Below are positions 2,991-59,699 of a stretch of DNA of 64,000 nucleotides, one piece after another (the first letter of the stretch is position 1; each line of letters opens with the position of its first letter). A model generated the notes under the pieces. The model was not told the origin of the DNA, made no database searches, and was given only the letters and a program-made list of their open reading frames with translations. Made by a program: the position numbers and the translations under genes. Origin of the DNA: Rikenellaceae bacterium (lineage in GTDB: Bacteria; Bacteroidota; Bacteroidia; Bacteroidales; Rikenellaceae); assembly GCA_015060115.1 (NCBI GenBank), contig SUZB01000002.1, forward strand, positions 1-64,000, written 5' to 3'.

Positions 2991-3595
2991 ATAGGACTCG
3001 AAGCGTAGCGCCAAGGGCGCAAGCTCGCGCGGATACCTTAGAAAAAAAAGCGCAGACCAAAGGTCGAGCAATAAATCATTATCACATCCGCGCAACCTGC
3101 CAAATATACTATGCTGGGCACAAATTTAGACTTTGGCGGAATTGCGTAGCAATTGGTTGATGATGTGGGACATCGTGAGCTTGCTCAAACGATTGCACAC
3201 ATCAGCAACATTAGGCTGTGAAACAGCCCCGCCAAAGTCAAACACAGCACAAAAAAAAGACCGACTTCAAAAAAGTCAGCCTTTGTGCCCAGGATAGGAC
3301 TCGAAGCGTAGCGCCAAGGGCGCAAGCTCGCGCGGATACCTTAGAAAAAAAGCGCAGACCAAAGGTCGAGCAATAAATCGCTATCATATCCGCGCAACCT
3401 GCCAAATATACTATGCTGGGCACAAATTTAGACTTTGGCGGAATTGCGTAGCAATTGGTTGATGATGTGGGACATCGTGAGCTTGCTCAAACGATTGCAC
3501 ACATCAGCAACATTAGGCTGTGAAACAGCCCCGCCAAAGTCAAGCTCAGCACAAAAAAAAGACCGACTTCAAAAAAGTCAGCCTTTGTGCCCAGG
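2991..3595 (-). repeat. two tandem ~302/303 bp units, each carrying the 3' end of tRNA-Leu and a structured domain
   Basis: 2991-3293 and 3294-3595 nearly identical; unit boundary ataggactcgaa recurs at 2991, 3294 and inside tRNA-Leu at 3596. Confidence 0.93.
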
Positions 3596-3669
3596 ATAGG
3601 ACTCGAACCTACATGCCGTTAAGCACTCGCACCTGAAACGAGCGCGTCTACCATTTCGCCACCTGGGCA
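3588..3669 (-). tRNA. tRNA-Leu (CAG)
   Basis: reverse complement TGCCCAGGTGGCGAAATGGTAGACGCGCTCGTTTCAGGTGCGAGTGCTTAACGGCATGTAGGTTCGAGTCCTATCCTGGGCA; acceptor TGCCCAG/CTGGGCA, loop TTCAGGT. Confidence 0.93.
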
Positions 3670-12723: not shown

Positions 12724-14133
12724 ATGAACAAGACAACGACTCACTCTGCGGAGCAACCCGTATATGGCTCCGAGGAGATGGTGCGCCCAGCACCCGCAAC
12801 GACACTCCCTGAGAGTATGACAGCCCCCGAAATCGCCTACCGTATGGTCAAGGACGAGACATACGCCGAGACACAGCCGAGGCTCAACCTCGCAACCTTC
12901 GTCACGACATATATGGACGACTACGCCACACGCCTGATGAACGAGGCGATATCGATGAACTATATCGACCAGACGGAGTACCCTCGTGTGGCGGTGATGA
13001 CGGCGCGTTGCATCAACATCCTCGCCAACCTCTGGCATAGCCCTGAGGAGAGCGAGTCTAAGACAGGCGCTTTGGGCATCGGCTCTTCGGAGGCCTGCAT
13101 GCTCGGTGGCGTGGCAGCGTGGTTACGCTGGCGTAAGAGACGCAAGGAGGCGGGCAAGCCCCACGACAAGCCCAACTTGGTGATGAGCGCAGGAATGCAG
13201 GTCGTCTGGGAGAAGTTCTGCCAGCTTTGGCAGATTGAGCTGCGCCAGATACCCCTCACCAACGAGCACCGCACCCTCGATATTGCCGAGGCACTCAGAC
13301 ATTGCGACGAGAACACCATCTGCATAGTGCCTATTGCGGGCGTTACTTGGACAGGTCTTAACGATGATATCGAGGCCTTAGACCGCGAGTTAGATGCCTT
13401 TAACAAGATGCACGGCTTGGAGATTCCTATCCATGTAGATGCCGCATCGGGAGGCTTTATCTTGCCCTTTATCTATCCTGAGAAGAGGTGGGACTTCCGC
13501 CTAAAGTGGGTAGCCTCGATATCGACTTCGGGACATAAGTTCGGCTTGGTATATCCGGGTCTTGGTTGGGTCATCTGGCGCGATAAGAGCTACTTACCCG
13601 AAGAGATGAGCTTCTCGGTAAACTACCTCGGTGCTGAGGTAAGGCAGGTGGGACTAAATTTCTCGCGCCCCGCAGCGCAGATTTTGGGTCAATACTACAA
13701 CTTTATCCGCCTCGGCCGTGAGGGCTACACCAACATTCAGCGCAACTCTATGGAGATCGCCCGCTACTGCCACGAGCGTATTGGAAAGATGGAGTGCTTC
13801 GAGAACTACTCAAAGGAGGTTGTAAACCCGCTTTTTGTATGGTCGCTAAGCAAGAAGTACACCGAGAGCGCCAAGTGGACACTCTTCGACCTGCAGAACG
13901 AGTTGCAGCAGAGTGGCTGGATGGTGCCCGCCTATACGATGCCCAAGAACATCGAGGATATGGTGGTTATGCGTATCGTGGTGCGTCAGGGCATGTCGCG
14001 CGATATGGCCGATATGCTGTTGCGCGATATTGAGAATGCCGTAGCCTCGTTGGATAAGCTCACCCACCCCACACCCTCGCGCATAGCCTTCGAGAAGCAG
14101 GAGAGACAGATGGGCAGGGTCTTTGCGCACTAA
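12724..14133 (+). CDS. gadB: glutamate decarboxylase
   Basis: PLP lysine motif STSGHKFGLVYPGLGWVIWR; IHVDAASGGFILPF. Confidence 0.95.
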   Translation: MNKTTTHSAEQPVYGSEEMVRPAPATTLPESMTAPEIAYRMVKDETYAETQPRLNLATFVTTYMDDYATRLMNEAISMNYIDQTEYPRVAVMTARCINILANLWHSPEESESKTGALGIGSSEACMLGGVAAWLRWRKRRKEAGKPHDKPNLVMSAGMQVVWEKFCQLWQIELRQIPLTNEHRTLDIAEALRHCDENTICIVPIAGVTWTGLNDDIEALDRELDAFNKMHGLEIPIHVDAASGGFILPFIYPEKRWDFRLKWVASISTSGHKFGLVYPGLGWVIWRDKSYLPEEMSFSVNYLGAEVRQVGLNFSRPAAQILGQYYNFIRLGREGYTNIQRNSMEIARYCHERIGKMECFENYSKEVVNPLFVWSLSKKYTESAKWTLFDLQNELQQSGWMVPAYTMPKNIEDMVVMRIVVRQGMSRDMADMLLRDIENAVASLDKLTHPTPSRIAFEKQERQMGRVFAH

Positions 14134-14229: not shown

Positions 14230-14360
14230 TAATTTGTTGTCAGAGTGGGTCTAATTTGGTCTATCGCAAAAATCCCGACGATGGGCTGTACTTGGTGGTA
14301 CTGCTCATTGTCGGGACTTTTTGGGATGGGCCGAAGGAGGCCCACTATCACAACAAATTA
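14230..14360 (-). repeat. 131-bp stop-codon-associated long-palindrome element (copy A, aspA)
   Basis: TAATTTGTTGT...ACAACAAATTA termini; nested complementary arms; final TTA is the aspA stop on the minus strand. Confidence 0.85.
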
Positions 14361-15791
14361 TCGGCGGGGTTTGATATTTAACTTCACAGGCTTAATCATA
14401 TTCTCAGGCAAGAGAATAGTATCAAGCTCCTCCTTGGTGAGGATGCCCTCCTCAAGAACGATGTCGTAGACACGACCACCTGTTGCCATAGCCTTCTTAG
14501 CAATCTTTGTAGAGTTCTTGTAGCCGATGATGGGGTTAAGAGCTGTTACGATGCCGAAGCTATCCTGAACATACTTGAGACACTGTGCCTCGTTAGCAAC
14601 GATGCCATCAACACAGTTGATGCGCAAGGTGTCGAAGCCGTTCATCATAATCTCAGCCGACTCGAAGCAGCACTGTGCCATTGTGGGCTCCATAGCGTTG
14701 AGCTCCATCTGAGCCTCCTGAGCGCACATTGCAACACAAGCATCGTTACCGATAACCTTGTAGCAGATCTGGTTCATAACCTCAGGGATAACGGGATTAA
14801 CCTTACCGGGCATAATTGATGAGCCGGGCTGGCGTGCGGGGAGGTCAAACTCGTGGAGACCGCAACGAGGACCAGAGCCAAGGAGGCGGAGGTCGTTACA
14901 GATCTTGTTGAGCTTAACAGCTACACGGCGCAATGCTGAAGAGTAGCCCACCATGCAAGTGGTATCCGAGGTAGCCGCTACGAGGTCCTCAGCGAGCTTG
15001 ATATCCCAACCGGTAATCTGGCGAAGAGCTGCGATGCACTTCTCAGAGTACTCAGGCTCAGAGCAGATACCTGTACCGATAGCTGTAGCACCCATATTCA
15101 CTGTGAGGAACTCCTCGGCAGCGAACTCAAGGTTCTTGCGCTCCTCCTTCAAGATCTGAGCGAAAGCACCGAAGGTCTGACCAAGGGTCATAGGCACAGC
15201 ATCCTCCAACTGAGTACGACCCATCTTGAGGATGTGAGCGAACTCCTTAGCTTTCTTCTCGAACGAAGCGATAAGGTCGTTGTAGTGGCCCATAAATACC
15301 TTGTGGGTAGCGTAGAGACCGAGGTGGATACCGCAAGGATATGCATCGTTGGTCGACTGCGAGCAGTTAACATGATCGTTGGGTGAGCAATACTGATACT
15401 CACCTGCCTCGTGGCCCATAATCTGGAGGGCACGGTTAGCGATAACCTCGTTAGCGTTCATATTGGTGGTAGTACCTGCACCGCCCTGAATCATATCGCA
15501 GGGGAAGTGGTCGTGGTGCTGGCCATCCATAATCTCACGGCAAGCCTGAGCAATACCCTTATACTGAGCCTCGGTCAAAAGGCCGAGCTGGTAGTTAGCC
15601 TCAGCAGCGCCAAGCTTGGTCATTGCCAAACCGTTGATGAACAAGGGGTAGTCGTTGAGGTGGAAACGGCTGATGGGGAAGTTTACGATACCGCGCAATG
15701 TCTGCACGCCATAGAGAGCCTCAACGGGCACCTCCATCTCACCGAGAAGGTCGCTCTCGATACGAGTTTTACCTGAATAGTTAATAGCCAT
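14358..15791 (-). CDS. aspA: aspartate ammonia-lyase
   Basis: signature GSSIMPGKVNPVIPEVMNQ; full-length fumarase/aspartase family. Confidence 0.95.
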   Translation of the reverse strand: MAINYSGKTRIESDLLGEMEVPVEALYGVQTLRGIVNFPISRFHLNDYPLFINGLAMTKLGAAEANYQLGLLTEAQYKGIAQACREIMDGQHHDHFPCDMIQGGAGTTTNMNANEVIANRALQIMGHEAGEYQYCSPNDHVNCSQSTNDAYPCGIHLGLYATHKVFMGHYNDLIASFEKKAKEFAHILKMGRTQLEDAVPMTLGQTFGAFAQILKEERKNLEFAAEEFLTVNMGATAIGTGICSEPEYSEKCIAALRQITGWDIKLAEDLVAATSDTTCMVGYSSALRRVAVKLNKICNDLRLLGSGPRCGLHEFDLPARQPGSSIMPGKVNPVIPEVMNQICYKVIGNDACVAMCAQEAQMELNAMEPTMAQCCFESAEIMMNGFDTLRINCVDGIVANEAQCLKYVQDSFGIVTALNPIIGYKNSTKIAKKAMATGGRVYDIVLEEGILTKEELDTILLPENMIKPVKLNIKPRR

Positions 15792-16626: not shown

Positions 16627-16745
16627 ATTTTTAAGACCGATAAGACCGTAAGACTTTAAGACCATTACGAGGTCGAGTATCAAAAAATCCTACTTGTCCT
16701 AATCGTCTTACTTGTCCTAAAAATTCTAACAACTAAAAACTAAAA
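16627..16745 (-). repeat. nested 9-bp-iterated palindrome with core TGATACTCGACCTCGTAATGG
   Basis: minus strand: GGACAAGTA AGACGATTA GGACAAGTA ... core ... GGTCTTAAA GTCTTAC GGTCTTATC GGTCTTAAA. Confidence 0.8.
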
Positions 16746-32491: not shown

Positions 32492-32540
32492 GCTAAAAAA
32501 CAGCGGATGGAAAATTTTCCATCCGCTGTTTTTTTAGCTT
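32492..32540. terminator. near-perfect palindromic Rho-independent terminator
   Basis: AGCTAAAAAACAGCGGATGGAAAA/TTTTCCATCCGCTGTTTTTTTAGCT. Confidence 0.88.
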
Positions 32541-32692
32541 TTAGTTTTTAGTTGTTAGATTTTTTAGGACAAGTAGGACTGGTAAGACGAGTAGGACAAG
32601 TAGGATTTGTTTGATACCCGACCTCGTAATGGTCATAAAGTCTTAAAGTCTTATCGGTCTTAAAAATCTCTAAAAACTAACAACTAATAGCT
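32541..32692 (+). repeat. nested 9-bp-iterated palindrome with core TGATACCCGACCTCGT
   Basis: GGACAAGTA GGACTGGTA AGACGAGTA GGACAAGTA - core 32613-32628 - GGTCATAAA GTCTTAAA GTCTTATC GGTCTTAAA, flanked by TTAGTTGTTAG/CTAACAACTAA. Confidence 0.83.
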
Positions 32693-38063: not shown

Positions 38064-38204
38064 TAATTTCTTGTCAGAAGGGGTCTAATTTGGTCTCGAC
38101 ACGAAGAAGCCCGGATGGGCTGTACTTGGCGTACTGCTCATTCGGGCTTCTGACTGAGAGGCCGAAGTAGACCCCTTATCACAAGAAATTATCACAAGAA
38201 ATTA
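38064..38204 (-). repeat. 128-bp stop-codon-associated palindrome (copy B, rny) plus a 13-bp end duplication
   Basis: TAATTTCTTGT...ACAAGAAATTA (38064-38191) then TCACAAGAAATTA; last TTA is the rny stop. Confidence 0.85.
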
Positions 38205-51492: not shown

Positions 51493-51690
51493 GTTGTTAG
51501 TTTTTAGTTGTTAGTTTAAGACAAGCAAGACGATAGGACGATAAGACAAGTAAGACGATAAGAAAAATTGTGATACCCGACCTCGTATGGTCTTAAGGTC
51601 TTAAGGTCCTAAGGTCTTATCGGTCTTAAAAATCTCTGCGCTCGAAACGAGCGCAACTCTAACAACTAACAACTAACAACTAACAGCTCA
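51493..51690 (+). repeat. nested 7-bp/9-bp-iterated palindrome with core TGATACCCGACCTCGT
   Basis: TTAGTTG heptamers, AAGACAAGC/AAGACGATA arm, core 51571-51586, GGTCTTAA arm, GCGCTCGAAACGAGCGC hairpin, CTAACAA x4. Confidence 0.85.
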
Positions 51691-51717
51691 AAAAAAGAAC
51701 AACACGAACAGCCCCCC

Positions 51718-57989: not shown

Positions 57990-58019
57990 TTGCACTTTCT
58001 GAAATTTTTTGTATCTTTG
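57990..58019 (+). promoter_or_regulatory. Bacteroidota-type promoter for the B12 operon
   Basis: TTGC at 57990-57993 and TATCTTTG at 58012-58019 directly upstream of the riboswitch. Confidence 0.55.
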
Positions 58020-58024
58020 CATCA

Positions 58025-58200
58025 GCATTGGTTCTCGGTGGGCACGCAAGCCCCCAAGAGATTAAAAGGGAATCGGGTGAAAATCCCGAACAGTTCCCGC
58101 TGCTGTAATTCTCACGAGTGTCTGCGACATCATTTAGCCACTGGCCTTTGGGCTGGGAAGGCTTCGCAGAAGGAGATAAGTCAGAAGACCTGCCAAGCGT
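58025..58200 (+). promoter_or_regulatory. cobalamin riboswitch
   Basis: AAAAGGGAATCGGGTGAAAATCCCGAACAGTTCCCGCTGCTGTAA ... GAAGGAGATAAGTCAGAAGACCTGCC (Cbl aptamer/B12-box signatures). Confidence 0.95.
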
Positions 58201-58418
58201 TTACAACGAGATTGTGCCTGCGGCGAATGGGCAAGTCTGCGACTGAAAATTTTCAGGTATTATATATTATAGGTATAACTCGTGGAGGAGGTATATTTTC
58301 TCGCCATAGCTATATCCCCGAAGCCTGAAATCGCTCAAGTCTCACAATTTAAGTCCATAAGCCAAGAGTTCTCGTCTGTGTAAAAGTTTACGGAGAATGA
58401 CCTTTTAACAAACATTTT

Positions 58419-59699
58419 ATGAGAAAGCAAGTATTCTTGGCTCTCAGCGTAGTAGCTATGCTGACAGCATTGGTGGGTTGCTCTTACGATGACGGAGCAG
58501 TCTGGGACAAGTTCAACGAACTCGAACAGGAGATCGACCAAAACCGCGAGGACATCGAGACACTTACAGCCTTGATGGATGCTCTTAGCGCGGGCAAGGT
58601 AATCATCTCGACCGAGACAACCGACGAGGGCGTGGTGCTCACATTTAGCGATGGCTCGAAGGTAACAATTCGCAATGGCGCTAACGGCAAAGATGGCGCT
58701 GACGGCGAGGATGGCAAAGATGGCGCTGATGGCAAAGATGGTGCTGACGGCAAAGATGGCGCTGACGGCAAAGATGGCGTAGACGGTACTGACGGTAAGG
58801 ACGGCAAGGATGGCGACTCTATGTTTGAGTCTGTCGAGGAGACCGAGACCGAGGTTATCATCACCCTCACCGATGGTCGCGTAATTCGTCTGCCAAAGGC
58901 TGGCTCGGAGGGCGAAGGTGGCTCGGAGGGCGAGACATACACCCTGCGCACCCTATCGTTCGAGGATTCGGATGCCAAGTTTACTGGATATACGCTCTAT
59001 GGCGGTGCAGAGATTAACACTTGGAGCGACCTTATTGATGATATGCAGTATGGTGGCTCGTTGACCTACACCGACTATATGGAGGATACATACTACTGGT
59101 ACGACGAGGGCAATACCGAGCTATTCCACTCGTTTACAACACCCCTCTGGGGCGGTGGCCATGTGGTTTCGAACTACATCACCGAGGATTATGAGACACT
59201 CCCTGAGGGCTACTACGGCTGGTATGAGTTGCAGATGTCAAACCCTATCGGTGGTCACAATGGCTCGGCAAACTTTGCAGTACACAACGGTTACAGCGAC
59301 TTCTTCAACTCGCAGATTTACGATGCTTCGTTGCAGACCTTGGAGTTTGCCGATGGCGTAGAGCGTGTTATTGACCATATGTATGTAACAAACACCTGCT
59401 ATGTGCTCAACTCGCTTACCTATGGCGATGGCTTCAACAGCCCCGCAACGGAGAGCACCTATATTAAGGTTGTTGCATACGGCTACAACGCCGCCGAAGA
59501 GGAGACTGGCTCGGTAGAGTTTGCGCTCTGCGAGAATGGCGTATTGGTTACCGAGTGGACAAAGTGGGATTTGTCGCCGTTGGGCAAGGTTGCAAAGGTT
59601 GCCTTTAACTTCTCGGCATCCGAGGACCAGATAGGCTCTTACGGTTTGAACTGCCCCGCCTACTTCGCCTACGACGATGTTGCGGTACGCTGGGAATAG
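58419..59699 (+). CDS. DUF4465-type B12-operon lipoprotein with collagen-like GxY repeat
   Basis: lipobox LVGC; coiled coil; GKDGADGKDGADG...; C-term LSPLGKVAKVAFNFSASEDQIGSYGLNCPAYFAYDDVAV. Confidence 0.82.
   Translation: MRKQVFLALSVVAMLTALVGCSYDDGAVWDKFNELEQEIDQNREDIETLTALMDALSAGKVIISTETTDEGVVLTFSDGSKVTIRNGANGKDGADGEDGKDGADGKDGADGKDGADGKDGVDGTDGKDGKDGDSMFESVEETETEVIITLTDGRVIRLPKAGSEGEGGSEGETYTLRTLSFEDSDAKFTGYTLYGGAEINTWSDLIDDMQYGGSLTYTDYMEDTYYWYDEGNTELFHSFTTPLWGGGHVVSNYITEDYETLPEGYYGWYELQMSNPIGGHNGSANFAVHNGYSDFFNSQIYDASLQTLEFADGVERVIDHMYVTNTCYVLNSLTYGDGFNSPATESTYIKVVAYGYNAAEEETGSVEFALCENGVLVTEWTKWDLSPLGKVAKVAFNFSASEDQIGSYGLNCPAYFAYDDVAVRWE

Follow-up and report, generated by a model that had tools for sequence, protein, structure and literature searches.

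A stop-codon-associated palindromic repeat family, probably mobile and restricted to one genus, in an Alistipes-like gut bacterium

In the 64,000-nucleotide stretch of DNA analysed here (the window), the aspA gene ends at the edge of a large palindrome, which raises the question whether this structure is a terminator belonging to the gene or a repeat that was inserted at its end. The first-pass annotation had described a 131-bp palindrome whose edge seemed to supply the aspA stop codon, and its coordinates, sequence and stop codon (Table 1) were all confirmed. In the following, F denotes the aspA or mRNA strand and R the opposite, template-side strand, i.e. the + strand of the window. Either strand folds far below chance: as DNA the + strand reaches −42.7 kcal/mol compared with −12.3 kcal/mol for shuffled sequences (z = −11.9, matched by 0 of 200 shuffles), and as RNA the minus strand has a z of −9.1, R being the better-folding strand at this copy. 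The structure is a single long, imperfect and interrupted hairpin and not, as had been proposed, an assembly of separate stems. The annotation was also wrong in stating that a T-run is absent from the right place, as TTTTT follows the inner GC-rich stem on both strands. A simple terminator scan did not report this element, which is poorly suited to such a scan because the rules permit a loop of only 3-8 nt and the stem is interrupted.

Table 1. Positions of E1 copies A and B, their parts and the adjoining genes in the window
Feature	Position	Strand	Remarks
E1 copy A	14230..14360	-	Best match of covariance model R1, 131 bits; folded; F strand is the aspA mRNA strand
Outer terminal arm ACAACAAATT on + strand (5' end of F strand, AATTTGTTGT)	14350..14359		Covaries across the family
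Outer terminal arm AATTTGTTGT on + strand (3' end of F strand)	14231..14240		Covaries across the family
aspA stop codon TAA	14358..14360	-	T from host; AA are the first two bases of the E1 unit AATTT...
Inner GC-rich hairpin TCCCGAC ... GTCGGGA	14273..14316		Stem 14273-14279 / 14310-14316
Conserved apex GGGCTGTAC-loop-GTACTGCTC of inner hairpin	14283-14306		
T-tract TTTTT right behind inner hairpin, aspA strand	14268..14272	-	Terminator-like
T-tract TTTTT behind inner hairpin, + strand	14318..14322	+	Would serve convergent gadB
aspA, aspartate ammonia-lyase	14361..15791	-	Gene upstream of copy A; NF008909, 693 bits
gadB, glutamate decarboxylase	12724..14133	+	Convergent gene; TIGR01788
E1 copy B	38064..38191	-	At the end of rny; same kind of element as copy A
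rny (RNase Y) stop codon TAA	38202..38204	-	Supplied by duplicated element end; rny assigned by family library

The description of the palindrome as an inserted, dispersed repeat was borne out in so far as about 100 distinct copies are detected by a covariance model in the 1.96-Mb genome of the same Alistipes-like gut bacterium; blastn retrieves 45 matches to the element there, and the pattern of its apex occurs 19 times compared with 0 times for a reversed-pattern control. We refer to these sequences as E1 and consider it fairly probable that they constitute a genus-restricted family of non-coding, quasi-palindromic mobile elements of approximately 127-135 bp with copy A as a member. Relatives were drawn from metagenome assemblies of ruminant-gut Alistipes sp. 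and Rikenellaceae, and among the 37 genomes of the same-genus sample 24 contain E1; the copy number is very uneven, ranging from 0 to about 100. The covariance model found none in 24 genomes from outside the genus that represent other Bacteroidales families. Plasmid and phage records likewise contained none, and five exact apex matches on viral contigs were set aside as the model gave no support for elements there. Rfam returned no match above the gathering score, only sub-threshold matches to miRNA hairpins, and our literature searches retrieved no description of the family. With many dispersed, sharp-edged, non-coding copies that carry terminal inverted repeats and fall between 100 and 300 bp, E1 would fit the broad class of MITE-like or ERIC/YPAL-like elements.

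The hairpin is conserved as a structure. Thirty-three diverse members, including aspA copies from other species, are alignable over their full length, and two-sided compensatory changes occur in 30 of the 37 consensus stem pairs. Paired cells amount to 92.5% compared with 71% in shuffles and two-sided changes to 237 compared with 77, while sliding the pairing partner by a single column lowers the paired cells to less than 50%. Alternative inner stems (CCCGAC, GCCGTC, AGAAGCCCG, AATCCCCC and AAATGCG) are each matched by their own complement, the same applies to alternative middle sections and outer arms, and variants of the terminal inverted repeats AATTTsTTGT / ACAAsAAATT stay complementary as well.

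The position of the copies relative to genes is constrained as well. The first three bases form the TAA stop codon of the upstream gene in 53 of the 102 copies in the genome, compared with about five flush copies expected if positions were drawn uniformly from the intergenic gaps concerned; a further 16 lie within 8 nt of the upstream stop, a few use an internal TGA of E1 as stop codon, and most of the remainder are second members of tandem arrays. No copy among the 102 lies within a gene, and a co-directional gene is located upstream of all but five, so that orientation is nearly constant. The best matches in other species are mostly flush with a stop codon, too. Among 90 downstream neighbours 48 are convergent and 42 co-directional, the median distance being 274 nt, and E1 sites are therefore ends of transcription units. 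Many of the upstream genes look like housekeeping genes when their protein sequences are read, with family-library assignments covering aspA, rny and gadB. At copy B the outer end of the element is duplicated (TATCACAAGAAATTA occurs twice within 38176-38204), and it is the extra copy that gives the rny stop.

The two strands of E1 are not equivalent. R is the better-folding strand in all 102 copies (mean −72.2 compared with −56.5 kcal/mol), and in a strand-neutral alignment the arm mismatches on this strand comprise 445 G.T but 82 A.C and 381 A.G but 69 C.T. Selection on a folded mRNA would lead to the opposite bias, so selection appears to act on the template-side strand. Strand-biased mutation as a source of the G.T excess was set aside by argument alone: transcription-linked C-to-T changes would place G.T on the other strand. 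At least five T within the 8 nt behind the inner hairpin are present on the mRNA strand in 84 of 100 copies (shuffled mean 30, maximum 44), which thus have the layout of intrinsic terminators with a GC-rich hairpin followed by a T-tract at a gene end; R carries such a tract in 51 of 100 copies (shuffled mean 20, maximum 28), and some subtypes have a weak one. Judging from this arrangement, E1 probably also ends the transcripts of upstream genes. The initial view that copy A is a repeat and not an ordinary terminator consequently holds for its first half only, since most copies combine the inner hairpin with a T-tract and species without the element often have a simple terminator hairpin in its stead. 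As a role in termination needs the F strand and leaves the bias on R unexplained, two selective forces must be assumed.

That E1 is a discrete and dispersed unit is evident from 119 pairs of copies that are at least 95% identical at different loci: identity breaks off at both edges, mostly to within a single base, and the upstream flanks are unrelated. The unit itself extends from AATTT to AAATT, the preceding T is host-derived, and T plus AA yields TAA. No target duplication is visible at the copies, the AATT at both ends being readable as inverted repeat or as duplication, and the genomes compared contain no clean pair of empty and filled sites with intact flanks; insertion as such is for these reasons something that we infer. 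Turnover is rapid. E1 is missing at aspA outside the genus, and within the genus it is missing in many species and usually represented by a different family member where it is found, which disagrees with a syntenically conserved terminator. It occurs at aspA in 19 of the 34 species examined, when a degenerate (L056) and a truncated copy (L077) are included, and the aspA tree needs at least four gains or losses. Most element-bearing species have a different member there, often two or more in tandem. One species (L050) has a copy identical to copy A over 131 of 131 positions despite differences at 46 of 213 fourfold sites of aspA, which fits recent homogenisation and strong constraint equally; its sister (L051) carries quite different elements at this site. 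The same pattern is seen for rny and gapA, where related species possess different members, or plain terminators in case the element is missing. At gapA of genome G011 the terminator position is taken by no more than an E1-like core hairpin, the outer arms of which have decayed. Two further observations concern these sites. In L237 and L242 the last codons, stop and terminator of rny occur a second time downstream (the unit measures about 155 bp in L237), which gives the impression of a gene end restored by an insertion. In addition, other species of the genus have another type of hairpin, about 130 nt long and with the apex CTCACATACG...AGTATGCT, that starts at or a few bases from the stop codon, TAG stops included (gapA in L277, L279, L280, L282, L288 and L270; rny in L238 and L249).

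A search for enzymes that could mobilise E1 covered several classes. Y1 transposases (PF01797) were found in 0 of 38 genomes of the genus with positive controls, IS110 in none of the 38, and integron integrase (IntI) in 0 of 38 above the curated cut-off; weak IntI matches, which we attribute to other tyrosine recombinases, appeared in all genomes and all controls. Reverse transcriptase genes were found neither in the genome carrying copy A nor in several high-copy genomes. Since the assembly of the former is 94% complete, a single mover gene may be missing from it. A larger repeat on contigs C5, C18 and C2 was considered as a parent element and proved to be another MITE, at least approximately 250 bp in length with the ends GAGGCTGAATAAAAA / TTTTTATTCAACCTC, that contains an E1 copy (L221, L222 and L223 at C5:26265, C18:86094 and C2:50152).

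Drawing on sequences from metagenome-assembled genomes, we favour as reasonably probable the interpretation that E1 is a mobile palindrome of the MITE/ERIC/YPAL type which inserts at stop codons and functions there as a 3'-end terminator. It would spread in a MITE-like manner with the folded R strand as the recognised structure, as suggested by the retention of G.T and A.G instead of A.C and C.T mismatches on that strand. This strand would be joined after the T of the stop codon, such that host T and element AA form TAA, and the inner hairpin with its T-tract may then act as the intrinsic terminator and 3'-end hairpin of the gene. Insertion at a stop would be cheap and maybe even useful because of such a terminator function. 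It is conceivable, if doubtful, that E1 represents a new class of elements homing to stop codons, in which a mover other than Y1, IS110, an integron enzyme or, in this genome, reverse transcriptase attaches the folded template-side strand (DNA or RNA) directly behind the stop T and always in the same orientation, so that TAA is re-formed and a terminator is put in place. The exact position at the stops of apparent housekeeping genes at the ends of transcription units, the T-tract behind the inner hairpin and the 131-bp identity with the L050 copy despite the divergence of aspA could also be accounted for by a host RNA element, either a terminator or a stabilising hairpin conserved in the 3' UTR, that is not mobile and was spread by duplication and gene conversion. 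We regard this as unlikely, as such an element would hardly be distributed so patchily within one genus (0 to about 100 copies), with close relatives differing in which member, if any, a given gene carries, nor would it have sharp edges, unrelated flanks and a structure optimised in 102 of 102 copies on the strand opposite the mRNA.

The perfect terminal inverted repeats AATTT.../...AAATT, the size, the copy number and the lack of coding capacity would be in line with a classical MITE of a DDE transposon, comparable to ERIC, RUP or NEMIS and mobilised in double-stranded form by a transposase whose gene lies elsewhere. This explanation appears quite improbable in view of terminal arms that differ among members while staying complementary (AATTTCTTGT, AATTTTCGAT, TTTAGCGT, TTTGCAGT), unlike the constant ends served by a single transposase; neither TA nor any other target duplication was seen, fixed orientation relative to genes and precision at stop codons are unusual for such elements, and the structure is strand-specific. 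Transcription of R into an antisense small RNA, with the hairpin as a regulatory or protein-binding RNA, would agree with the stronger RNA folding of R throughout the copies and with its purine-rich internal mismatches. It is very improbable nonetheless, given that the next gene is co-directional in about half of the cases (42 compared with 48 convergent), which leaves nothing obvious to transcribe R, and that Rfam provides no match above threshold.

How does E1, read as a mobile palindrome, relate to known systems? The attC sites of integrons are hairpins of conserved structure and variable sequence just behind a stop codon, with the bottom strand active. E1 differs from them by being scattered at chromosomal genes and not in cassette arrays, by the absence of an R/L box consensus on inspection by eye and by the lack of IntI above the cut-off in the genus sample. 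The YPAL elements of Yersinia are described as inserting closely downstream of stop codons, near terminators. Also named RU-2, these are mobile palindromes of about 168 bp with many intergenic copies and targets adjoining or spanning dyad-symmetric sites; they generate target duplications of 3-26 bp and are co-transcribed with upstream genes with a possible effect on mRNA stability (PMC2229807). E1 resembles YPAL as a probably mobile palindrome with many intergenic copies and is distinguished by the lack of a visible target duplication, by lying flush with the stop in one orientation, by fully covarying stems and by tandem arrays of different members. ERIC (IRU, RU-1) are 127-bp palindromic intergenic repeats with TA ends and target duplication that are co-transcribed with upstream genes and form RNA hairpins influencing mRNA stability (PMC2229807), whereas E1 shows no such duplication, is anchored at stop codons and was not matched to any known family. 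GTAG-tagged REPs of 20-40 bp, often associated with Y1 (RAYT) transposases, are intergenic palindromes located near the 3' ends of genes, and flanking genes often take their TAG stop from the palindrome termini (PMC3733652). E1 shares with them the location at the gene 3' end and the provision of the stop codon, but is about 130 bp long, has no GTAG or CGTC tag at the unit edge and is not accompanied by Y1 in the 38 genomes of the genus. YPAL, ERIC and GTAG-REPs are thus the nearest known relatives. Stop-codon supply by a palindrome is not new in itself, as it has been reported for GTAG-REP termini (PMC3733652); the novelty lies in the family as such and in how long its members are, in their uniform orientation, in the extent to which they are anchored to the exact base, in variable stems that covary throughout, in tandem arrays and in the lack of Y1.

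With about 100 copies placed base-precisely at gene ends in one orientation and turning over rapidly within one genus, E1 offers many natural replicates for studying how a mobile element targets stop codons and whether selfish repeats become terminators of ordinary genes. Its strand asymmetry leads to a concrete and testable prediction, namely a folded bottom-strand intermediate.

Several other repeats and features were encountered. Chains of other palindromic repeat families follow many E1 copies of the genome at a distance of 150-450 nt downstream in recurring order; their arms consist of short tandem words and their loops are conserved (e.g. GAGGTCGGGTATCA, GAAGTCTGGTATCATC and AAATGTCGGTAGCG). 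Within the window, palindromic repeat chains are located at 16627-16745, 32524-32671 and 51542-51697. A 263-bp direct repeat with 98% identity (3043-3607) overlaps a tRNA gene (3588-3668), a cobalamin riboswitch is present at 58011-58211, and tandem 9-bp repeats (GATGGCGCTGACGGCAAA...) at 58657-58827 would encode collagen-like Gly-Ala-Asp-Gly-Lys-Asp repeats.
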